This document shows, piece by piece, positions 29,720-47,880 of a stretch of DNA of 64,000 bases (position 1 is its first letter; every line of letters starts with the position of its first letter). The stretch covers positions 124,001 through 188,000 of the forward strand of contig JACRBL010000040.1 of the NCBI GenBank assembly GCA_016234485.1. Reading direction: 5' to 3'. The notes beneath the pieces were generated by a model. That model was not told the origin of the DNA, made no database searches, and saw nothing but the letters and a program-made list of their open reading frames with translations. Source of the stretch: Chloroflexota bacterium. Lineage in GTDB: Bacteria > Chloroflexota > Anaerolineae > Anaerolineales > Villigracilaceae. The translations under genes and the position numbers were made by a program.

Positions 29720-34536
<4,817 letters not shown>

Positions 34537-34557: not shown

Positions 34558-35352
34558 TTAGGGTTGGGTGGCTTGTACCCAATCGACCTGCAATTTGATT
34601 TCGTTATTCTGGATGGACGCGACAGTGCTTTCGGGCAGGCCGTAGTAGGGGGTGCGGACACCATTGGTCTTGAATGGATAAATGCCGCCCAAGGCGAAAT
34701 TGAGGATAATAAATTTAGAGCTATCAAATGCCCATTTGCCAACAAAATCCACCAAGGGGCGAGTAACGCGGTAGACAAGTTCATTATCGATCTCAAAGAC
34801 AAAGCAATCCTCCAGGCAGTGGAAGGAATATTCGTGCCATTGCGTAACATCCTGAGGCGCGGAAAAATATTTTTTATTGACAAGAGCGCCTTCACCAGAA
34901 TAGCCAGGGCCATGAATGGCAACGCTGACCCAGTCGGGTTCGCCAACATTTTCCATAATGTCGATCTCGCCGCAGGCAGGCCAGGGAGCGGATGCGCCAA
35001 GCGCCCAAAACGCGGGCCACAATCCCGCCCCGGCGGGGATGCGCATGCGAGCCGAGACGCAGGCCCGGTTGAACTCAAATTTGGAACGGGTATTGATCCG
35101 CCCGGACAACAAGTCGAAAACACGCCCTTGCGGGGTAAGGTACCCCTTTGCGTAGCGTGGCTGGATCACCAGGACACCGTTGGCCGAGTCGTCGCCTTTT
35201 TCCAAATAAATGGTTTCAGGAGCGTCCACGTAGGCTTGTTGTTCGTGGTTGTGAATCTCGCCAGTGATTTCTACATTCCATTTCGAACGGTCAAGAACCG
35301 GCGCGGTAAAGTCATCGAAGAATAGCTCTGTGTTCTTGTGCAAGTGTTCCAT
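34558..35352 (-). CDS. GH16-family beta-glucanase without signal peptide
   Basis: A 264-residue GH16 enzyme. The catalytic signature ExDxxE is intact as Glu129, Asp131 and Glu134 (CGEIDIMENVG), and substrate-cleft segments (PAGAGLWPAFWALG, IHGPGYSGEG, FIILNFALGG) match laminarinase-type members. Unlike most GH16 endoglucanases it starts directly with the catalytic domain (MEHLHKNTELFFDDF), so it should act inside the cell on imported beta-glucan chains. It lies 21 bases before the phosphorylase gene and 32 after the secreted GH16, in one operon. Confidence 0.92.
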   Translation of the reverse strand: MEHLHKNTELFFDDFTAPVLDRSKWNVEITGEIHNHEQQAYVDAPETIYLEKGDDSANGVLVIQPRYAKGYLTPQGRVFDLLSGRINTRSKFEFNRACVSARMRIPAGAGLWPAFWALGASAPWPACGEIDIMENVGEPDWVSVAIHGPGYSGEGALVNKKYFSAPQDVTQWHEYSFHCLEDCFVFEIDNELVYRVTRPLVDFVGKWAFDSSKFIILNFALGGIYPFKTNGVRTPYYGLPESTVASIQNNEIKLQVDWVQATQP

Positions 35353-35384: not shown

Positions 35385-36245
35385 TTACGGTACCGCCTGG
35401 TATACGCGCACGTAATCAACCAAATATTGCGACGGGAAGGGAGTGTCTGGGGTGACCAAACCGCCAAGGGTGCCGCCAATTGCCAGATTGAGGATGATGA
35501 AGAAAGGCTGGTCAAAAACCCATTGGCGCGTACCAACGTCTTCGCGTGTATACGTGCTGTATTTCTCTCCATCGAAGAACCAACTAATCTGGTTCGTATC
35601 CCATTCAATGGCATAGGTGTGGAAATCCTCGGCCGCATTGAAACCGAGGCGGTTCCATTTGCTCAATCCAACCGCGCCGGAATAGCCGGGGCCGTGCATG
35701 GTGCCGATGATCAGGTCTGGCTCCCTGCCGACATATTCCATGATGTCGATCTCACCGCAATCGGGCCAACCGGCCAACGGGAAATTCTCACCGAGCATCC
35801 AGAAGGCGGGCCAAAGTCCTTTCCCGGCCGGGAGTTTGATGTGCGCTTCGATGCGTCCATATTGGAAGGTCTGCAATCCCTGGGTTTTGAGCCGGGCGGA
35901 GGTGAACTTAAAACCGCCCTGGCCATTATCTTCTTTGCGGGCCTCGATGACCAGCAGGCCATTTTCAACGCGAGCATTTTCAGGGGCGTTGGTGTAGATT
36001 TCCATCTCGCCGTTGCCCCATCCGCCGCCGCCTAGATCGTACGTCCAGTTAGATGCGTCGATGGCGCTGCCGTCAAATTCGTCGTGCCAGATCAATTGAA
36101 AGCCACTTGGCGGAACGATTGGCGTAGGAACTGAAGTCGGAGAGGACGGGGGCTGAAACGGGGCGCAGGCCGACCAGACCAAAGAGAATATGACAATAAC
36201 TACAATGATACGGAGTCGTTGAGACAAAGAAGTTAACACATTCAC
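35385..36245 (-). CDS. GH16-family beta-glucanase, lipoprotein
   Basis: A 286-residue GH16 enzyme with a lipoprotein signal: a hydrophobic stretch at residues 11-24 and lipobox VWSAC with acylated Cys27, then a Pro/Ser/Thr linker (PPSSPTSVPTPIVPPS). The catalytic signature is Glu165, Asp167 and Glu170 (CGEIDIMEYVG). The beta-1,3-glucanase markers HDEFDGS and FHTYAIEWDTNQISWFFDG are present. It is surface-anchored and probably cuts laminarin or a similar glucan into oligosaccharides for the ABC importer encoded just upstream in the operon. Confidence 0.93.
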   Translation of the reverse strand: MNVLTSLSQRLRIIVVIVIFSLVWSACAPFQPPSSPTSVPTPIVPPSGFQLIWHDEFDGSAIDASNWTYDLGGGGWGNGEMEIYTNAPENARVENGLLVIEARKEDNGQGGFKFTSARLKTQGLQTFQYGRIEAHIKLPAGKGLWPAFWMLGENFPLAGWPDCGEIDIMEYVGREPDLIIGTMHGPGYSGAVGLSKWNRLGFNAAEDFHTYAIEWDTNQISWFFDGEKYSTYTREDVGTRQWVFDQPFFIILNLAIGGTLGGLVTPDTPFPSQYLVDYVRVYQAVP

Positions 36246-36321: not shown

Positions 36322-37170
36322 CTATCCTTTTACGGATCCCTGGGTCAGGCCCGAGATAATGTATCGTTGGAGGAATATGAACAGGATCAACATCGGGAAA
36401 GTCAACATCAGCACTGCGGCGGCCAGAGTCGGCCAATTGCTTCCGTACACGCCCTGGAATACGATCAATCCGCGGGTGATGGGGTAGTAATCCTTGTTGG
36501 TTAAGTAGATGGTCGGTGCAATAATCTCGTTCCAGATGCCGATGGCATGTAGGACAACCACCGTGGCGATGGCTGGTTTGCTGAGCGGAATAACAACCGA
36601 CCAGACGAAGCGGAAATATCCGCAGCCGTCCAAAGCCGCCGCTTCATCCAACTCTTTTGGCAGGGTTTTGATGTAGTTGACCAGGATGACGATCCCGATG
36701 GGGTTGACTAGGAATAGCATGATGTACCCGATGGGATTGTTGTACAGCCCCAGGTGCAGGATCAGTTGGAACTGTGGGATCAGCGCCGGGGGGAGGAAGA
36801 GGGCGATCACGAACATGGTCAGAACAACACCGGAATGTTTGATGTAGCCCCGCGCAATCGGGAAGGCCACAAAGATCGCGGTCAAGATATAGATCGCGGT
36901 GGCCGAAACAGTGTAGAGCAGCGAGTTGAGGATGTATTTTGGGAAGTTCGCTTTCGTCCAGGCATCGACAAAGTTTTTAAAGTTCAGTTCGGTCGCAAAG
37001 CTGGTAGCATCTTTCATGAAGGACGGCATAGTCTTCAAAGATGTATTGAACAGCATCAGCAAAGGTCCCAGATAGATCACCGCAAGCAAGATCAAGACGG
37101 CATATGAGAGGACTCTGCCCCAGTTGATGCGTCTGTTCGTGGATGTTTTTGGGCTGGTTATGGCGCTCAT
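36322..37170 (-). CDS. Carbohydrate ABC transporter permease (MalG type)
   Basis: A 282-residue inner-membrane permease with six helices. The EAA loop that contacts the ATPase is clear: ELDEAAALDGCGYFRFVWSVVIPLSKPA. The C-terminus ends QRYIISGLTQGSVKG, the typical MalG tail. It overlaps the MalF-type gene by ATGA, so the two are co-translated and form the heterodimeric channel. No ATP-binding subunit is encoded in the locus; a shared MsmK/MalK-type ATPase elsewhere must energise it. Confidence 0.93.
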   Translation of the reverse strand: MSAITSPKTSTNRRINWGRVLSYAVLILLAVIYLGPLLMLFNTSLKTMPSFMKDATSFATELNFKNFVDAWTKANFPKYILNSLLYTVSATAIYILTAIFVAFPIARGYIKHSGVVLTMFVIALFLPPALIPQFQLILHLGLYNNPIGYIMLFLVNPIGIVILVNYIKTLPKELDEAAALDGCGYFRFVWSVVIPLSKPAIATVVVLHAIGIWNEIIAPTIYLTNKDYYPITRGLIVFQGVYGSNWPTLAAAVLMLTFPMLILFIFLQRYIISGLTQGSVKG

Positions 37171-38093
37171 TCCATGATCCTCGCTTCCCTGCGCTGCAGG
37201 ATATAGTTAGTTGTCATACCGAGCACAAGCACCAGCAAAAACAGGATGATCGAGGCTGACGCGGCATATCCCTGGCGGAAACTGCTGGTCACACTGCCAG
37301 AAGTTTGCCCGAAGCCAGTGGCATAGATCAGGTAGCCCAGAACCTGGGTCCCGTTTCTGTAACCGATCAGGATCAGGAATAGTTGCCAGGCTTGCAGGCT
37401 GCCGATGATGTTGAGGGTCAGATTGGTATTGACGCTGGGGGTCAGAAGGGGCCAGGTGACGTTCGAGAATACCTGCCACGGATTGGCGCCGTCAATGCGG
37501 GCCGCCTCGTACAGTTCGGATGGGATGGTTTGCAGCCCGGCCAGGAAGATGATCATGGTGGTTCCCATGTTCGCCCAAATCTGGATGGCGATCACCCACG
37601 CAAAGGCGACGAATGGCGGACCTCCCAGAAATTCAGAACGAGCGCCAAACAACGCAAGGAATTTTGCCATTGGGCCGCCCAGCGGATAGAGGAACAGCGA
37701 CCAGACCAAGCCTTGAATGACTGCTCCCAGGATGATGGGCATGAAGTACAGGGTGCGGAAAAAATTCCGCCCTTTTAGGTTCTGGTTGACGATCATCGCT
37801 ACCAGCAGACCCAAGCCAAACTGAATTGTGGTCACGAAGAAACAAAAAACCAGGGTCCGCCCCAGGGCGCTTAGATTATCCTTAGATGCCTGGCCCATTA
37901 ATAAAAATTCTTTGTAGTTCGCCAGGCCCACCCAATTAACAGTGGCGCCCTTGATCCCGGTGGCGTCGGTGAACGAGTAGACTGTCGTCGCAAGGGACGG
38001 ACCCAGAGCGATGACAAAGTAGAAAAGGATTCCCGGCAGGAGCAGTAGATAGGGACTCCACCTGGTCCAGCCACGGCCAAAGTGATAGTTCAT
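37167..38093 (-). CDS. Carbohydrate ABC transporter permease (MalF type)
   Basis: A 308-residue six-helix permease. The EAA loop reads ELYEAARIDGANPWQVFSNVTWPLLTPS. The N-terminal P-loop-free cytosolic segment is short (RWSPYLLLLPGILFYFVIALGP). It pairs with the MalG-type protein whose start overlaps its stop. It follows the binding-protein gene after a 76-base gap containing a strong hairpin, which probably keeps permease levels below binding-protein levels. Confidence 0.93.
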   Translation of the reverse strand: MNYHFGRGWTRWSPYLLLLPGILFYFVIALGPSLATTVYSFTDATGIKGATVNWVGLANYKEFLLMGQASKDNLSALGRTLVFCFFVTTIQFGLGLLVAMIVNQNLKGRNFFRTLYFMPIILGAVIQGLVWSLFLYPLGGPMAKFLALFGARSEFLGGPPFVAFAWVIAIQIWANMGTTMIIFLAGLQTIPSELYEAARIDGANPWQVFSNVTWPLLTPSVNTNLTLNIIGSLQAWQLFLILIGYRNGTQVLGYLIYATGFGQTSGSVTSSFRQGYAASASIILFLLVLVLGMTTNYILQRREARIME

Positions 38094-38169: not shown

Positions 38170-39492
38170 TTATTTTACAGCATTGAGCCCGGCTTGCAAG
38201 TCGCCCTGAACTTTATCAGCGAGCGTCTTGGGATCATCATCGGTGCCGAACGGCTTGAAGTAGGTAGCCCACGGGTTGGCGAACTGGCCAGCACCCTTGG
38301 GGGCGATCCAGTACTGTTCGTAACCAACACGGAAGTTGGCCAAGTAGGGAGCTACTTCGGCGCCAATGCCAGTACTCAATTTGGCGGTCGGTTGGGTGGG
38401 GATGAAACCGACGGCATCCACGAAGGCCTGGTAATTGGCGGGATCGGAGAATTCGGTCAGGTACAGCAAGGCCGCATCCTTGTTGGGGGTCTTGGCCGCA
38501 ACAACCCAACCCTGATCGTACTTGCCGAACAGGTACTTATTGTCATCGGCGTTGTCCGAGCCTGGGAAGGGGATGTAGCCCCATTTGAAGGCGGGCTGGG
38601 CTGCGTCGATGGCCGGGCCGTACCAGGTTCCGCCAGGGAACATGGCAACCGCGCCAGATGCGAAGCGACCAGGAGCTGCGTCACCGGCGATACCGCTGGC
38701 GCCTTCCTCCATCATGTCGCGGGCGTACACCTGCATGCGCTCCCACATAACCAGTGAATTGGCGTCATTCCACTTGATCGAGCCGGTCCACAGGCCTTCC
38801 ACGAGGGCGGCCTGATCTGGATAAATCGAGCCGAGCAAGCCATAGGCACCCACGAAGATCGGCCAGCCGTCTTTCCCACCGGCGGTCATGCAGGGGATGC
38901 CGGCAGTCTTGAAGGTTTCGCAAGCAGTGACAAGTTCAGTCCAGGTTGTGGGGACTTTAACGTTGTTGGCGGTGAACAAGTCCTTGTTGTAGTAAATGCC
39001 GCTGTAGGAAACACGTCCTAGATTGATCTCGTACACCTTGCCGTTGTAGGTGCCAGCATCCTGGATCGCGGAAGCATCATAGTTCTTCAGGAATGGCTGG
39101 CCGGTCAGATCCATCAGCAAGCCAGCGTCGATCAACTGCTGCCAGTTGGGCGGGTCAACCTGCTTCATGTAGGGCTGGGCCCCATTGGCAAAGCCAAACA
39201 TATCCACCACATCAACATCGTTGGCGGTCAGACGGGTCTGGGTGACGGTGCTCAATTCATTGGCGTTTACGACTGCCATATCCACCGTGATGTTGGGATA
39301 TTTTTCCTGGAACTTCTTGTTGAATTCTTCCATGAACGCCACCATCGGCGGGTTCTGGTGGACAAGGACGCGCAGGGTGACCTTCTCAGCCGCGGGGGGC
39401 TGGGAGGTGGGAGTGGCTTTTGCGCCGCAAGCGGTCAGCAGCATCGAAAGGGCGACCACGATGGTCAAAACCAGGTACAGTTTCTTGCTCAT
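38170..39492 (-). CDS. Extracellular sugar-binding lipoprotein of an ABC importer
   Basis: A 440-residue family 1 solute-binding protein. The signal ends in lipobox LLTAC with Cys22, followed by the short linker GAKATPTSQPPAAEK. The mature protein has the standard two-lobe pattern (VTLRVLVHQNPPMVAFMEEFNKKF, VDVVDMFGFANGAQPYMKQ, GAVAMFPGGTWYGPAI, AALLYLTEFSDPANYQAF). It delivers oligosaccharide, by context beta-glucan fragments, to the MalF/MalG-type channel. A LacI-type operator lies about 160 bases upstream. Confidence 0.93.
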   Translation of the reverse strand: MSKKLYLVLTIVVALSMLLTACGAKATPTSQPPAAEKVTLRVLVHQNPPMVAFMEEFNKKFQEKYPNITVDMAVVNANELSTVTQTRLTANDVDVVDMFGFANGAQPYMKQVDPPNWQQLIDAGLLMDLTGQPFLKNYDASAIQDAGTYNGKVYEINLGRVSYSGIYYNKDLFTANNVKVPTTWTELVTACETFKTAGIPCMTAGGKDGWPIFVGAYGLLGSIYPDQAALVEGLWTGSIKWNDANSLVMWERMQVYARDMMEEGASGIAGDAAPGRFASGAVAMFPGGTWYGPAIDAAQPAFKWGYIPFPGSDNADDNKYLFGKYDQGWVVAAKTPNKDAALLYLTEFSDPANYQAFVDAVGFIPTQPTAKLSTGIGAEVAPYLANFRVGYEQYWIAPKGAGQFANPWATYFKPFGTDDDPKTLADKVQGDLQAGLNAVK

Positions 39493-39650
39493 ACGGATTA
39501 TCTCTCCTTATCGTTAGGAAATTGTTTCGAATGGATTGAACAATCTTTCATCGAGGCATGAAGAATTACGGACAGTATGTTTCGGATACACCTCCGGAGA
39601 CGTTTAGGTCAACACTTTTGGAGACCATGCCAGAACCAGATAGCCAAGTT

Positions 39651-39664
39651 TGGAAGCGCTTGCA
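39651..39664 (-). promoter_or_regulatory. LacI-type operator upstream of the binding protein gene
   Basis: TGGAAGCGCTTGCA is a near-perfect dyad around AAGCGCTT and matches the LacI/CcpA-family operator consensus TGNAANCGNTTNCA. Confidence 0.65.
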
Positions 39665-39684
39665 TTAACAGGCATAAAAAACGA

Positions 39685-39876
39685 CTACTTCCTTGGGGCA
39701 CGCCGCGAGGCAAGCGAGCGAGCGGCCTGATTTGGCTGGTATCCACTTTCGTTGATAACCTGCCACACGCGCTCACGGACTTGGGAACTCACATTGGCGT
39801 GGCCGTTAATGACACGTGAGGCTGTCGTTAGAGAGACACCTGACAATTTTGCCACCTGCTTCAATGTGATCGGCAT
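39685..39876 (-). CDS. Free-standing LacI-type DNA-binding domain
   Basis: From ATG 39876 the frame gives 63 residues: MPITLKQVAKLSGVSLTTASRVINGHANVSSQVRERVWQVINESGYQPNQAARSLASRR, which is the complete LacI helix-turn-helix plus hinge helix, and then stops. The roughly 270-residue sugar-binding domain that normally follows is missing, and the downstream sequence does not encode it in any frame. A LacI-type sugar-binding domain without an HTH is instead the N-terminus of the large regulator encoded next door. The frame extends to 39921, but that part overlaps an operator. No good SD is seen for either start. It could be a functional mini-repressor or a truncated gene. Confidence 0.7.
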   Translation of the reverse strand: MPITLKQVAKLSGVSLTTASRVINGHANVSSQVRERVWQVINESGYQPNQAARSLASRRAPRK

Positions 39877-39897
39877 AACTTTTGAACCATCTCTGGT

Positions 39898-39911
39898 AGA
39901 AAGCGCTTCCA
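39898..39911 (-). promoter_or_regulatory. Second LacI-type operator, at the 5' end of the LacI HTH gene
   Basis: AGAAAGCGCTTCCA shares the AAGCGCTT core with the site at 39651 and is bracketed by GGTAGA and TCTACC. Its position suggests autoregulation. Confidence 0.55.
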
Positions 39912-40135
39912 TATCTACCATTCATTCTAGCGAATCGAGCAGGGCAGGTCTTGGAGAAAAGAGCGATTTGCATGGACATTTCATAGGGGTTGACCAGAGC
40001 TGTCCAAAATGGCCGAGTTTTCCTTATCAGGCAGCCCAAAGTGGAAAGAAATTCAAAAAAATGTGTTTCACTTAATTGGTAATGACCCGCTAAAACCAAA
40101 AAACGCGTACCAAAATAGGCGTCCAGTGGAAAACA

Positions 40136-40164
40136 ATAAAGGTTGTCCACCTTTTGGGACAACC
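40136..40164 (-). terminator. Terminator after the hybrid regulator gene
   Basis: GGTTGTCC and GGACAACC pair around an eight-base loop; on the minus strand TTTATTGTTTT follows. The rest of 39922-40190 shows no gene. Confidence 0.65.
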
Positions 40165-40190
40165 CTTACGTTTTTTGTATTGGTCGCAGT

Positions 40191-43100
40191 TCAGGAATGC
40201 CGGAATTTCTCCGGAGAAGTACCAGCCTCGCGATGGAAAATACGACTGAAATACCCGCTGTCTGAAAACCCCACATCCAGCGCAATTTCTGTAATGGTTT
40301 TCTGGCTTTCTTTAAGCTGAAGTTTGGCCTGGTTTACACGATAGCGTTGAAGATATTTTATTGGGGTTGTCCCCAACTCCTGACGGAAACAATAAGTCAG
40401 ATAATCCTCAGAAATGTTGATGTGCTGGGCGATATCCTGGCGCGTGATCGGATCAACATAATGCTCATGAATGTACGCCATAGCCTGTCGGACCAGGCGC
40501 TGAGTCTCTACGCCCAAGTTGCGTTTCCGCTCCAATGTGGACCCGATATGGGCCACCGTCTCCTCCATGCTGAACAGACCTTTTTTTAGCACCACTGCAA
40601 CACCCTTGGTCAGGCGGGACATGTCTTCTTCGGTCAAAACCTTTCCAGTCACCACAATCACCGGCACATCGCGCGTCGCTTCCTGTTCGCGCATGGCTTC
40701 TAGGACTTCAAATCCATCCATCTCAGGCATCTGGAGGTCCAAAAGAACCAGATCCACCTTCTCCTGTTGGAGGATTTGCACCGCTTTACTGCCATTGCTG
40801 GCCAACAGAACCCGGTTGGATGAGGATTGCGACTGTACGATACGGGCATGCAATTCGAGGGTGTTCGGTTCATCGTCCACCACAAGGATGGTGCGCAGCG
40901 GATGGGCAGCATCCAGAGGGATCCATTGCTGGCCCAGCGCCTGTGACAATTCACTTAGTTCGATGGGTTTGGTCAGATAATCCAACCTCAACAGCGACTC
41001 GCCCTTTGACGATGAGGCGTACAACATGGTGGGAATATTGCGGGTGACCGGGTTGCTTTTGAGCGCCTTCAATGTTTTCCAACTCAGATCAGATTGGATG
41101 GTCATATCCAGCACAATGATGCCGGGCATGAAGTCGTTTAATTGCGTTTCCCAGTTTGAATGTTTTCCAATCGATACTTCTTTCACTTTCATGCCATGCT
41201 GTTCCAAGAGCGTACAGAACCGGGCATTGGCGCCGAGTTGATCAGACAGAACCAAAACAGATTGCCTGCTTGCAGTTTGTGAACCGCTCTCCGCTTGTTG
41301 TTCCTTGGGGATGGGCTGCACAGGGAGTGTCAGGTAAAACACAGAACCTTCACCATCAATTCCTGTGGAGTGCAATCCCATCGTACCATCTTGCATTTCC
41401 ACCAACATTTTACAAATGGCAAGGCCCAATCCCAAACCCGGATAACCGAGGGCAATGCTACGTTCGGAGCGGCGGAACGCATCAAAGATGACCTCTTGTT
41501 CTTCTAGGGGAATGCCGAGGCCGGTATCCCGCACCAAAACGGTGAGCAGCCCCTTGTCCTCGGTGAGCGAAAGGCTGACCTCGCCGCGACTGGTGAATTT
41601 AATGGCGTTGTTGATCAGGTTCAATACCACTTGCCGCAGGCGAGTCCGATCGCCCCACACCCAAGGTCCATGTTCAGGAATGTTTGTCCGCCACGACAAC
41701 CCTTTGTCTGCGGTTAACTGGCTGCCGCTATTTACAACCATTTGCAGGGTCTCCCCCAGGTCGACCAACTCCATGTTCAGCCGCAGTTGACCGGCGTCTA
41801 GGGTGGCGAGGTCGATCACGTCTCCGATCAATCCGCCGAGGTGCTGGGCATAGGCATAGATGCGTTCGATGTCTTTTCGGGTTGTATCGTGGATCCGCAA
41901 CGGCCCTTCCTCGGTTTCTTTAAGCACAACACTGCTCAGCCCAACGATCAAGTTAAGCGGCGTGCGAAGTTCATGGCTGATCGTTGAAAGGAAACGGGTT
42001 TTCACCCGGTTGGCTTCTTCTGCCAGGCGGCGGCCTTCGGTTGCCTGGCGGTATAACCGGACAGTATTGAGGGCGCTACTCAATTGCTGTACGATGGAGC
42101 CATAAAGATCAAGGTGCTCGGTATCGAAGGCCATGAAGCCCAATTGCCCGGTTTGGTCTGTAACTGGTATCAAAGTTAGGCTAAAAGGTTGTTCTCCAGC
42201 AAACAAGCCCGAGGGAGGAAAATCGCGGCTGGCAAACCGCATGGGTTCCTGCACCGATAACGCAAGGTTGCGAACCGTGCTCCACGCCAACGGATCCTCT
42301 TCGTTTGGTTCGAACAAAACCATCAATGCGGTATGGATGTTCATCTCCGGCAGATGCTTCAGCAGGATGGCGTAGATCTGGGCTTCGTCAAGTGCGGTGA
42401 GTAATTCGGCAGTCAATAAACTCAAGCGGCTGGATGTCCAGCGTTCCCGCACGACATAACGGCGGTGTTGTTTCTGCATCCGGGCACTGATGGTCTGCCT
42501 GGCTTCATCCAGAATGGTCTTTGACAAGGGCGAGGATGGAATGACATCCTTGCACGCTCCGATTTCCAAAATGGAAATGGCTTCTTGCCACAGGTGGACA
42601 TCATCGTTGCCTTCTTCTGTGCGCCGGAGAACCTCATCCAATGTTTCCTGAAATAGCGTACCGTCACCTGACTGCGCGCCCAAAATGCATGCATCCACCA
42701 ATCGTTTCCCGAAGGATAAGCTCTCACTTTCAGTCAGGTCTTGCGCCTGACTCATGATGGTTCTGGAAATGGATTCAGCCAATTGCGCCGTTCGCTTATC
42801 CATGCTTTTACTTTTGGGATCGTCCGCCTGGTTGACGGCGCCAGCCAGCAATTTGCCCCGGCTGCACCCACAAGATTGGCGCACAACCAACCGAGTCTTT
42901 AATTTACTTTCTTCAGCCAACGGGGAGTTTTCTTTTATATGCCTGAGGATCAATTCAACCGCCCGGTAGCCGATATCGAATAGCGGAACATGAACGCTGC
43001 TCAATCCCGGTTCCTGGACGGCATCCTCGAGTCGATTATCGAACCCGATGACTGCCACGTCATCGGGAATTTTTCTCCCGCTTGCAGTTAACGCATCCAT

Positions 43101-43769
43101 CGCCCCCAAGGCGGATTCATCGTTGCTGGCCAGGACTGCCGTAAATTCAACCCCGGAAGCCATGATTTTCTTCATGGCAAGGTAACCACCGCTGTAAATA
43201 TGCTGGCTATAGGCTACCAGGCGGGAATCTTTTCCCAAATGATGCCTTTCGCAAAAATCTTGATATGCCCGCAGGCGCTCCCCGGTGTCACCTTGCATAT
43301 CATCCTCAGACCCGGCAATGAACACGATTTTCCGATGCCCATGTTGAAATAAATGGAACATCGCTTGCATGATGCCCCCTGCGTTATCCACAACAATCGA
43401 CGGGCCGCTTTCCCCCGATCCAATAAAGAGTATTGGATGCCCCGTATTGATCAGTTCCTGAACATACCTTGAGCGCGATTGAGAATGAAGCGGTACGGCA
43501 ACAATCAAGCCATCCGTATTCCACCGGTCGATGGGGATATAATCCTGATCTGGCAAAAGAACGGGCCAGACAGGTTTTAGAGGGTCTACTGGGCTGGCAG
43601 ATGGCCCCATTCCGCATCCAAGGAGCAGATTGCATCTCAAATCCCGTGCAGCCTTACTGATGCCGCGATACATTGGCGCGAGATAACTGAGGTTCGTTGC
43701 TGTCCTATAAAATTGCCAGCCGGCCAAGACGCCGATGGTTGGTTGTCCGTGCCGATAAGTTGATACCAT
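40191..43769 (-). CDS. Soluble LacI-type sensor / hybrid histidine kinase / AraC regulator
   Basis: A 1192-residue one-protein signalling chain. Residues 5-305 are a LacI/PBP1-type sugar-binding domain (PTIGVLAGWQFY, GSGESGPSIVVDN, AVLASNDESALGAMDAL, DDVAVIGFDN, ending RQSCGCSRG) with no HTH. A helical linker and GAF-like domain cover about 330-570. HisKA has its phospho-accepting His at 599 (STISHELRTPLN). HATPase_c is at about 700-815 (NLINNAIKF, DTGLGIP, GLGLGLAICKMLVE). REC1 at about 836-945 is degenerate; REC2 at about 959-1080 is canonical (VVDDEP, LLDLQMPEMDG). An AraC double HTH ends the protein (1097-1192). No signal peptide or membrane segment is present, so a cytoplasmic sugar is sensed. 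It presumably activates the adjacent beta-glucan genes. Confidence 0.92.
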   Translation of the reverse strand: MVSTYRHGQPTIGVLAGWQFYRTATNLSYLAPMYRGISKAARDLRCNLLLGCGMGPSASPVDPLKPVWPVLLPDQDYIPIDRWNTDGLIVAVPLHSQSRSRYVQELINTGHPILFIGSGESGPSIVVDNAGGIMQAMFHLFQHGHRKIVFIAGSEDDMQGDTGERLRAYQDFCERHHLGKDSRLVAYSQHIYSGGYLAMKKIMASGVEFTAVLASNDESALGAMDALTASGRKIPDDVAVIGFDNRLEDAVQEPGLSSVHVPLFDIGYRAVELILRHIKENSPLAEESKLKTRLVVRQSCGCSRGKLLAGAVNQADDPKSKSMDKRTAQLAESISRTIMSQAQDLTESESLSFGKRLVDACILGAQSGDGTLFQETLDEVLRRTEEGNDDVHLWQEAISILEIGACKDVIPSSPLSKTILDEARQTISARMQKQHRRYVVRERWTSSRLSLLTAELLTALDEAQIYAILLKHLPEMNIHTALMVLFEPNEEDPLAWSTVRNLALSVQEPMRFASRDFPPSGLFAGEQPFSLTLIPVTDQTGQLGFMAFDTEHLDLYGSIVQQLSSALNTVRLYRQATEGRRLAEEANRVKTRFLSTISHELRTPLNLIVGLSSVVLKETEEGPLRIHDTTRKDIERIYAYAQHLGGLIGDVIDLATLDAGQLRLNMELVDLGETLQMVVNSGSQLTADKGLSWRTNIPEHGPWVWGDRTRLRQVVLNLINNAIKFTSRGEVSLSLTEDKGLLTVLVRDTGLGIPLEEQEVIFDAFRRSERSIALGYPGLGLGLAICKMLVEMQDGTMGLHSTGIDGEGSVFYLTLPVQPIPKEQQAESGSQTASRQSVLVLSDQLGANARFCTLLEQHGMKVKEVSIGKHSNWETQLNDFMPGIIVLDMTIQSDLSWKTLKALKSNPVTRNIPTMLYASSSKGESLLRLDYLTKPIELSELSQALGQQWIPLDAAHPLRTILVVDDEPNTLELHARIVQSQSSSNRVLLASNGSKAVQILQQEKVDLVLLDLQMPEMDGFEVLEAMREQEATRDVPVIVVTGKVLTEEDMSRLTKGVAVVLKKGLFSMEETVAHIGSTLERKRNLGVETQRLVRQAMAYIHEHYVDPITRQDIAQHINISEDYLTYCFRQELGTTPIKYLQRYRVNQAKLQLKESQKTITEIALDVGFSDSGYFSRIFHREAGTSPEKFRHS

Positions 43770-44601: not shown

Positions 44602-47600
44602 ATGGCTCAAGCAATCCTCCGCACCAAGATCATTCCTCCGCCGCGCCACGCGCGGACCCTGGCGCGGCCGCGCGTCACAGACCTGTTGACGCACGCGTTG
44701 GAATATCGTCTCACAATTTTACAAGCCGAAGCTGGGTACGGAAAAAGCACGGCGCTCTCCGAACTGGTGACGGCGGTGAAGCCGCTGGCCTGGTATCAAG
44801 TCAACGAAGAAGACAACGACCCCGTCGTCTTTCTTCTTCACTTGTGTCATGCATTTTTACGCGCGGTTCCCGAACTGAAAGAGTTGCCCTTGCGCTTTCT
44901 CGAAACCTGGGACGGCTCGCAGGGACCGCTTCCCTGGCGAAGTGTGACCGACCAAATCATCAACGCGCTCAGCGCGCAATTGGAAGAACCCACCCTGCTC
45001 GTCCTGGACGACGCTCACATCGTCATCGAGGGCGGCGAGACCGCCTTCATTGTTGACCGTCTCTTCGGCATGGCGCCTGCCAATTTACACGTCCTGCTTT
45101 CGGGGCGTCCCGTCATCACCCTGCCAACCCTGGCGCGCTGGCGTTCGCAGGGTGAAGTGCTGGAAATTGACCAATCCGCGCTCACGTTCAACGCCCAGGA
45201 AATCACCGTGCTTTTTTCCACGCACTACGAACTCGAACTCAGCGCTGAAGAAGCCGCCGCGCTCCTCTCCTACACCGAAGGCTGGGCGATTGCCCTGCAA
45301 CTGATCTGGCAGAGCATTCGCTCGCTATCCGCCTCGGCTGTCCAATTCCCGCTTCACTGGCAGACCGATTCGCTCGAAGCGCTGTTCGACGTTCTCGCCC
45401 GCGAAGTGTTCGAACGACAACCCGCCGACGTGCGCGATTTCCTCCTGACCACCGCCACACTGCGCGACCTTCGATCCGAAGCCTGCGACGCGCTCCGAAG
45501 CGTCTCTGGTTCCGCCCACGCCGATTCCGCCTCCATGCTCGCCTATCTGCAAAGACAGGACCTGTTCATCATCGAAACCGCCGAGGGCGACCTTCGCTAT
45601 CACCACATCTTTCACAATTTTCTGCGCGAGCAATCCACAGCCGAGCAACGCGTCCAATGGCACCGCGCCGCGGCAGACTATTTCATTCAACAAAAAGAAT
45701 CCGAGTCTGCCATCCACCATTTGCTCGAAGCCCGCGCCTGGGACGCGGTGGCCGACCTGCTCGACGCGTACTCGCCGACGCTCCTCTCCAGCGGCAGGCT
45801 GGACACGCTTTCGACCTACATCGCCTCCCTTCCGCCCTCCAGCCTGGGTCAACATCCCATGCTGGTTTTCACCCTCGGAGAGTTGGCGCGCCTCCACTCC
45901 CGCTTCGACGAGGCCCAGGGCTGGTACAAGCAGGCCGAAACAATCTGGCGCGCCCGCGGCCAGCAGGATGGAGTTGCCCGCTCCCTGCGTGGACAGGCGC
46001 GCGTCTACCTCGATACGGTCAACCCCGCCCAAGCCGAACGCCTGCTCGAAGAATCCCTCCGCCTCAGCGATGGATTCGAAGACCGCGAAGTCCAGGTGCG
46101 CCTTTACGAACTGCTGGCCGAAAACAAATTAAACTCAGGCCACGTGGAGGAAGCCGAGCGCCTGCGCCGACGCGCGGAGGAACTTAACGCCGAGGGCCCC
46201 TCCAACGACCAGTTGCGATTCCGCGTCCTCCTGCGCACAGGCCGACTCGAAGAAGCCCGCCGCGGCCTCGAAGAACTGGCGGAGGCCGAAAAGCGCAATC
46301 CCGTCCAAATGCCGCGCGCCCATCGCGAAACCATGCTCCTGCTCTCGCTCATTTATTCGATGATGGGCATGAGCAACCACGCCTATCAGGCCGCGCTCGA
46401 AGGCACGCGTCGCGGCGATGAGTTGAAGTCCCCGTTCGTCACCGCCGTTGGTCACATGCGGCAGGGACACGCGCTTAATCTCGGAGTCGTGCGGAGCGGT
46501 TTTCCGCAAACACAGGGTTTGGCGGAATTTCATCCTGCTCCACAAGAAAACATCTCGCGCTCCCGCGATGAATTCGAAAAAAGCATCGCCATCAGCCGCA
46601 CGCTCGAAGTCCCGCGCCTGCTCGTCGAGGCCGATTGGGGCTTGTGCCGATCCTATGGCTATCATGGCGACCTGAAAAACGCGCAAGCCCGCGCGCAGGA
46701 AGCCATCGAAATCGCCTCGCAGGCTGGCGACGAATGGATCGCCTCTCTCACGCGCCTGACCCTGGGCGCGAGTTTCGTGCTGGCCGCGCGTTACGAGGCC
46801 GCCGAAAACTGGCTGGCACGCGCGGTGGCTGGCTTTCAAGAGTGCAGTGATTCCTTCGGCCGCGTGGCCGCGCGTCTCTGGCTGGCCTACGGAAGTTTCA
46901 AGCAAAAGAAATTCGAGCGTCTCGAAAAATTCCTGCCAGAGATGCTCCTCACCTGCCAGCAATATGGATACTACTTTCTCTTCACGCGTCCCTCCCTGCT
47001 CGGCGCGCCAGACGAACGCATCTTCGTCCCGTTGTTGCTGCACGCCCGCGCCCGCGACTGGGAATCCGCTTACGTTAATCGCCTGTTGGAGATCATGGGC
47101 ATCGCCAACGTCACGCTCCACCCTGGGTTTCAGTTACGCGTCAGAACGCTGGGCGCGTTTCAAGTCTGGAGGGGAAGCGAGGAGATTCCCTCCAACGGCT
47201 GGCGGCGCGAGAAGTCGCGTCAACTCTTCCAACTGCTCCTCACCCATCGTCAATCCCCGCTCGACCGCGATCAGATCTGCGACCTGCTCTGGCCTGAAGC
47301 CGACTCTGCCACCGCGCAACGCAATTTCAAAATCACGCTGAACACGCTCTACCACGTTTTGGAACCCGACCGCGACGCGGGAAGCGACTCGGCCTTCATC
47401 CTGCGGGACGGAGCCACCTACACCCTGCGCTTCGGCGCGGACCTCTGGCTGGACTCTGACCATCTTGCGCGTCTCACCCGTGAGGGACTCAAACCCACCT
47501 CCGTCTCGATATCGCTCCTCGAACAGGCCGTCACGCTCTACCGCGGCGACTACCTGCCCGACTCGCTGTATGAATCGTGGGCCGCGGAGGAACGCGAGCG

Positions 47601-47880
47601 ACTCTCCACTCTCTTCCTCGAGGCCGCCGATAAACTGTGCGAGCAATATATCCAAAGTGGAAAGTACATCGAAGGCATAGACCTGTGCCAGCGCGTGCTC
47701 ACCAAAGATAACTGCTGGGAGCGCGCCTACCGCCACCTTATGGTCGCCTACAATCATCTGGGCGATCGCGGCCAACTGGCGCGCGCCTATCAGCGCTGTC
47801 TCCAAACCTTGAAAGACGAATTGGATGTCGCCCCCTCCCCCGAAACGCAGGATTTGTACAAGGAATTGATTCGAAAGTAA
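44602..47880 (+). CDS. STAND-ATPase transcriptional regulator with C-terminal winged helix and BTAD domain
   Basis: A 1092-residue MalT-like regulator. Walker A is AEAGYGKST (residues 43-50) and Walker B is LLVLDDAH (near 135), followed by the MalT-type NTPase helices to about 370. Residues 370-830 are TPR-like helical repeats (GWYKQAETIWRARGQQDG, AERLLEESLRLSDG). From about 843, VRTLGAFQVWRGSEEI starts an OmpR/SARP-type winged helix (REKSRQLFQLLLTHRQSPLDRDQICDLLWPEAD), and a BTAD domain completes the C-terminus. In SARP proteins these two domains usually come first; here they follow the ATPase and TPRs, and there is no LuxR HTH. It stands at the head of the CoA-metabolism cluster and may control it. 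Confidence 0.9.
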   Translation: MAQAILRTKIIPPPRHARTLARPRVTDLLTHALEYRLTILQAEAGYGKSTALSELVTAVKPLAWYQVNEEDNDPVVFLLHLCHAFLRAVPELKELPLRFLETWDGSQGPLPWRSVTDQIINALSAQLEEPTLLVLDDAHIVIEGGETAFIVDRLFGMAPANLHVLLSGRPVITLPTLARWRSQGEVLEIDQSALTFNAQEITVLFSTHYELELSAEEAAALLSYTEGWAIALQLIWQSIRSLSASAVQFPLHWQTDSLEALFDVLAREVFERQPADVRDFLLTTATLRDLRSEACDALRSVSGSAHADSASMLAYLQRQDLFIIETAEGDLRYHHIFHNFLREQSTAEQRVQWHRAAADYFIQQKESESAIHHLLEARAWDAVADLLDAYSPTLLSSGRLDTLSTYIASLPPSSLGQHPMLVFTLGELARLHSRFDEAQGWYKQAETIWRARGQQDGVARSLRGQARVYLDTVNPAQAERLLEESLRLSDGFEDREVQVRLYELLAENKLNSGHVEEAERLRRRAEELNAEGPSNDQLRFRVLLRTGRLEEARRGLEELAEAEKRNPVQMPRAHRETMLLLSLIYSMMGMSNHAYQAALEGTRRGDELKSPFVTAVGHMRQGHALNLGVVRSGFPQTQGLAEFHPAPQENISRSRDEFEKSIAISRTLEVPRLLVEADWGLCRSYGYHGDLKNAQARAQEAIEIASQAGDEWIASLTRLTLGASFVLAARYEAAENWLARAVAGFQECSDSFGRVAARLWLAYGSFKQKKFERLEKFLPEMLLTCQQYGYYFLFTRPSLLGAPDERIFVPLLLHARARDWESAYVNRLLEIMGIANVTLHPGFQLRVRTLGAFQVWRGSEEIPSNGWRREKSRQLFQLLLTHRQSPLDRDQICDLLWPEADSATAQRNFKITLNTLYHVLEPDRDAGSDSAFILRDGATYTLRFGADLWLDSDHLARLTREGLKPTSVSISLLEQAVTLYRGDYLPDSLYESWAAEERERLSTLFLEAADKLCEQYIQSGKYIEGIDLCQRVLTKDNCWERAYRHLMVAYNHLGDRGQLARAYQRCLQTLKDELDVAPSPETQDLYKELIRK

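Follow-up and report, generated by a model that had tools for sequence, protein, structure and literature searches.

A candidate cytoplasmic hybrid two-component regulator with a LacI-type core, and a stand-alone LacI headpiece, at a beta-1,3-glucan operon of Chloroflexota

Results

The regulator locus

The window that we analysed, the whole stretch of 64,000 nucleotides from a Chloroflexota bacterium, carries on its minus strand a regulator gene and, downstream of it on the same strand, genes for a sugar-binding lipoprotein (SBP), two permeases, a pair of GH16 enzymes, a GH149 phosphorylase and a GH1 glucosidase:

40191-43769, minus: regulator with LacI core, GAF-fold, histidine kinase, REC1, REC2 and AraC domains, 1192 aa (open reading frame, Pfam, AlphaFold2 model)
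40136-40169, minus: weak terminator-like hairpin directly 3' of the regulator gene (2 found against 1.0 expected in shuffles)
38170-39492, minus: ABC sugar-binding lipoprotein, SBP (open reading frame, Pfam)
37167-38093, minus: ABC permease 1 (open reading frame; conserved cassette)
36322-37170, minus: ABC permease 2 (open reading frame; conserved cassette)
34558-35352 and 35385-36245, minus: two GH16 genes (Pfam)
31093-34536, minus: GH149 1,3-beta-glucan phosphorylase (1570 bits, cut-off 1150)
29720-31051, minus: GH1 beta-glucosidase (Pfam and profile match)

The divergent neighbour (44602-47880, plus strand) encodes a protein of 1092 aa that matches MalT- and AfsR-type regulators.

A preliminary description of this DNA had suggested surveying the regulator's architecture next to glycan loci, and in 17 other genomes the regulator does lie with a same-strand ABC sugar importer and GH16 and/or GH149 genes. 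At two further loci, L187 and L191, GH16 and GH149 genes stand near the regulator without the transporter, and the relative in L063 adjoins a GH53 gene.

Domain anatomy of the regulator

The protein divides into the following parts, all encoded on the minus strand:

42870-43739, minus: PBP1/LacI ligand core, aa 11-300 (Pfam, fold comparison, 35-sequence conservation)
42399-42803, minus: helical domain and long coil, aa 323-457 (AlphaFold2 model, alignment)
42054-42386, minus: probable GAF-fold domain, aa 462-572 (AlphaFold2 model, PDB comparison)
41316-42002, minus: HisKA (His599) and HATPase_c (Asn721), aa 590-818 (Pfam, conservation)
40926-41261, minus: REC1, predicted pseudo-receiver, aa 837-948 (AlphaFold2 model, conservation)
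40533-40892, minus: REC2, intact (D965/D966, D1011, T1041, K1063), aa 960-1079 (Pfam, conservation)
40197-40511, minus: AraC-type HTH, aa 1087-1191 (Pfam, AlphaFold2 model)

Pfam matched Peripla_BP_3 (aa 139-300, 1e-30), HisKA (590-660), HATPase_c (706-818), a single REC (961-1064, 2e-25) and HTH_18 (1113-1191). An AlphaFold2 model that drew on 11 family members has a mean pLDDT of 78. Beyond the Pfam domains it shows helices at 323-457, an alpha/beta domain spanning 462-572 and, at 837-948, another REC-like fold; its kinase region covers 553-818, with REC1, REC2 and the HTH behind it. When the whole model was compared with the PDB, the matches listed all fell on the N-terminal part, which has the LacI-core fold (Z 27.9 to AscG; LacI-family cores Z 25-28, PurR and CcpA among them). 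The segment 318-582, modelled separately, reached a pLDDT of 90, and its best PDB matches were mostly GAF domains, with a probability of 1.0, E values of only 2e-3 to 1e-2 and identities of roughly 9-17%. The Pfam search gave no GAF match in the regulator, and residues 462-572 of the model are likely to form a GAF fold.

The N-terminal HTH that LacI regulators join to their core is absent: the protein begins at the core, and no such domain can be fused ahead of it since the open frame leaves only about 21 residues before the start. No membrane segment was found, the peak of 19-residue hydropathy being 1.67 and lying within the ATP-binding domain, nor was an export signal. A single cytoplasmic chain with a LacI core, a kinase and an AraC output, free of a LacI HTH and of membrane spans, as initially described, is thus what Pfam, fold comparison, open frame and hydropathy agree on; the domain order also stands for the core, the kinase, both receivers and the AraC domain, but the GAF-like linker is a match of fold with no Pfam counterpart.

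Relatives and conservation

We aligned 34 relatives with the same domain plan (40-61% identity), all from Chloroflexota, which together with the window protein form a comparison set of 35 sequences with kinase, REC2 and AraC. The relatives are collinear, measure 1070-1258 aa and occur in the same order as well as in other groups of the phylum; an assembly fusion, which had been named as one finding that would overturn the initial reading, is ruled out by so many collinear proteins. Among the matches listed, the named genomes that cover most of the query are likewise all from Chloroflexota, and the family is, judged by these sequences, likely to be restricted to this phylum.

The ligand-pocket residues R165, N216, D217 and D244 of the core are invariant across the 35 sequences, and H599, E600, N721 and D1011 are kept in 35/35; K1063 of REC2 is invariant in 11 sequences. 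In E. coli XylR and Vibrio XylRA, a LacI core joined to an AraC HTH works with no kinase (PMC12125979), and one might suppose that here, too, the ligand acts allosterically on the AraC domain, phosphorylation being secondary or lost. We regard such a one-component switch as highly improbable, as none of the kinase residues or REC2 acceptor residues varies among the 35 divergent sequences, and idle residues would not persist in this way.

The helical linker is the most variable part of the regulator (28% mean identity to the window copy over 320-412). In one relative (L065:7811-11152) the helical domain between core and GAF-fold is mostly deleted (query 305-420) and the protein is otherwise complete. 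In another (L200:4465-8004) the regulator frame lies in four pieces, which could be a sequencing error or decay, and headpiece, operator and operon are kept.

REC1 and the route of the phosphate

REC1 is among the fastest-changing parts: its mean identity to the window copy, 35%, compares with 60% for REC2 and is undercut by the helical linker alone. Its acidic pair is lost, and position 888 is D in 21 sequences, E in 4, N in 6, H in 1 and S in 1, REC1 being missing from the other 2 (L064 and L187). The suspicion that REC1 lacks its phospho-acceptor is borne out for the 12 of 35 sequences in which position 888 is replaced, but not for the window copy, in which Asp888 is present. Its sequence marks REC1 as a pseudo-receiver.

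The preliminary description had spoken of a complete hybrid phosphorelay. The sequence does not bear this wording out: the catalytic REC1 and the HPt of multi-step kinases of the ArcB/BarA type are lacking, as Pfam found no HPt domain in the regulator, the catalytic residues of REC1 are not conserved, and two relatives do without REC1. A true four-step relay would have to run from REC1 through an HPt protein encoded elsewhere to REC2, and the retention of REC1 in 33/35 members, 21 of them with Asp888, could be read in its favour; given the lost acid pair, the replaced acceptors and the deletions, we hold it to be highly unlikely. Since HPt is absent from the regulator and the REC1 active site is not conserved, one direct transfer from His599 to Asp1011 is the likelier route on sequence grounds.

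A candidate operator and promoter

Between regulator and operon lie a putative AraC-type operator, a -10-like element, a short LacI-type gene and two LacI-type palindromes:

39952-39985, minus: candidate AraC operator, half-sites CTATGAAATGTCCA and CNCKCTTTTCTCCA-like (direct repeat at 21 bp)
39924-39929, minus: -10-like TAGAAT, 22 bp beyond the operator (read by eye)
39898-39911, minus: LacI-type operator 1, TGGAAGCGCTTTCT, shortly after the -10 (palindrome search)
39685-39876, minus: stand-alone LacI headpiece gene, 63 aa (PF00356, E 2e-18; conserved in 8 loci)
39651-39664, minus: LacI-type operator 2, TGCAAGCGCTTCCA, after the headpiece gene (palindrome search)

The operator has two half-sites of 14 bp each at 21-bp spacing. 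Of 22 linked loci, 21 carry it between regulator and operon with a score of at least 13/18, though it is weaker in a few; in the remaining one, L193, a site scoring 13/18 lies ahead of the SBP gene and is followed by TATAAT. At 15/18 or better, 18 matches occur in 1.74 Mb of strand sequence, 18/18 of them at the regulator-operon promoter, and none in shuffled sequence, the loci used for this scoring being those in which the pattern had been spotted by eye. The position of the site and the AraC-like spacing of its repeats suggest that the regulator's AraC domain binds it. No operator was found ahead of the regulator's own gene, where the best match is 11/18. A scan of 39480-40300 for consensus sigma-70 promoters found nothing, so that the -10 rests on reading by eye. 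In three regulator-operon gaps (L188, L190, L194) there are three tandem half-sites at 21-bp spacing, not two.

Relatives in genus g59 of family f23 lie away from the ABC/GH16/GH149 cassette and have no operator nearby at 14/18 or more, so that not every member of the regulator family has beta-glucan as its target. The kinase could sense something other than a glucan fragment, such as glucose, a phosphorylated sugar or a purine-like compound, and act as a switch for carbon status, the more so as LacI cores take diverse ligands, PurR and CcpA being among the structural matches, and as relatives adjoin other carbohydrate loci such as that with the GH53 gene. We nevertheless consider this unlikely, because the regulator is so closely linked to one beta-1,3-glucan cassette in the 17 other genomes and because the whole own genome holds a single zero-mismatch copy of the operator, at the regulator-operon promoter. 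The conserved R165, N216, D217 and D244, together with the beta-1,3-glucan operon, favour a sugar as the ligand of the LacI core.

A stand-alone LacI headpiece

The headpiece gene is the strongest feature beyond the preliminary description, which also missed the conserved operator. LacI regulators are normally head-plus-core proteins, and a conserved headpiece that stands alone with its own candidate operators is therefore unusual. The gene ends in a stop codon at 63 aa, and a ligand and dimerisation core is neither part of it nor follows it. Headpieces of 64-76 aa with 57-68% identity occupy the same position at seven other loci, and silent substitutions are far more frequent than replacements (pS 0.60-0.97 against pN 0.07-0.27), a pattern that indicates strong purifying selection.

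At 8/8 loci that have the headpiece gene, and at 0/13 that lack it, a LacI-type palindrome follows the AraC site at a distance of 33-57 bp (Fisher 5e-6, with loci treated as independent despite their relatedness and the consensus derived from the same loci on which it was scored). The whole window holds only two such palindromes, one on each side of the headpiece gene. On the kinase tree the gene is scattered, a pattern that takes four changes or more, and several branches lack gene and site together. It is also conceivable that a full-length LacI regulator from another locus recognises such palindromes, relatives in the order having many of these regulators, and that the headpiece gene is a decaying relic; the strong purifying selection, the near-constant short length in eight loci and the presence of the site wherever the gene is present make this distinctly unlikely.

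Searching 400 genomes of the order, we found six short proteins at the regulator locus at the top of the best-scoring matches, as favoured by a search model built from the short proteins themselves; the other best-scoring matches were full-length LacI proteins, one frame at a contig end and a few frames of 203-301 aa. The contig-end case, a 74-aa stop-to-stop LacI frame in G676, was ruled out as a further stand-alone headpiece.

Discussion

Like E. coli XylR and Vibrio XylRA, the regulator unites a LacI-type core and an AraC HTH in one cytoplasmic chain, with a direct-repeat operator in those systems and a candidate site of this kind here (PMC12125979), but between them it carries a probable GAF-fold domain, HisKA, HATPase and two REC domains, whereas the XylR type is a one-component system. 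With the hybrid two-component systems (HTCS) of Bacteroides it shares HisKA-HATPase-REC-AraC in one chain and the linkage to glycan loci; HTCS, however, are membrane proteins that detect oligosaccharides on the periplasmic side, and the regulator, as initially contrasted with them, has a cytoplasmic LacI core and neither a membrane span nor a periplasmic sensor (PMC10766802). It resembles a cross of both and is, by their defining features, a member of neither. LacI/GalR repressors have the same core fold (Z 25-28), but here core and headpiece are on different proteins, the headpiece in a separate 63-aa gene and the core joined to a kinase. A literature search mostly confined to papers outside subscription, which does not imply absence, gave no match for this architecture or for a stand-alone LacI headpiece.

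We consider it probable, with moderate confidence, that the regulator works in the cytoplasm as a hybrid two-component activator akin to XylR, that it switches on a beta-1,3-glucan (laminarin-type) operon, and that the headpiece is a local repressor. GH16 enzymes would cut the glucan outside the cell, oligosaccharides would enter through the ABC importer, and an intracellular sugar, either an imported oligosaccharide or a breakdown product, would bind the LacI core. The signal may then pass through the linker and the GAF-fold domain to the kinase, where His599 would be phosphorylated and hand its phosphate directly to Asp1011 of REC2, REC1 serving as a non-catalytic spacer or docking domain. 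Binding of the AraC domain to the direct repeat, beside the -35 position, would activate the operon. In the window and at the seven other loci the first gene of the operon would be the headpiece, which could occupy the LacI-type site that closely follows the promoter, damping operon expression in a negative feedback. A lone headpiece without a dimerisation core is expected to bind DNA weakly. That headpiece and kinase-borne LacI core act in trans as a split LacI repressor seems very unlikely to us; if true, a single sugar-binding core would have charge of an activator driven by phosphorylation and of a repressor, both acting at one promoter.

If the preferred reading of an activator with a local repressor is true, the hybrid two-component regulators so far described at glycan loci gain a branch with cytoplasmic sensing, and this in a phylum in which control of this kind has received little study. 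The locus offers a defined promoter for testing and, with a head-only gene beside a headless core, lets the splitting and reuse of LacI parts be tested directly.

Proteins of the same order with a LacI core and GGDEF (L061, L062, L198, L199) are homologous to the regulator over the N-terminal 580 residues (36-40% identity); in L061 and L062 the output is GGDEF by Pfam, not kinase-REC-AraC, and L198 and L199 are placed here by their similar short length. In three of these proteins (L061:2844-5153, L062:5515-7806 and L062:11640-13970) the module of LacI core, helical domain and GAF-fold is joined to GGDEF, and such proteins sometimes occur in several neighbouring copies.
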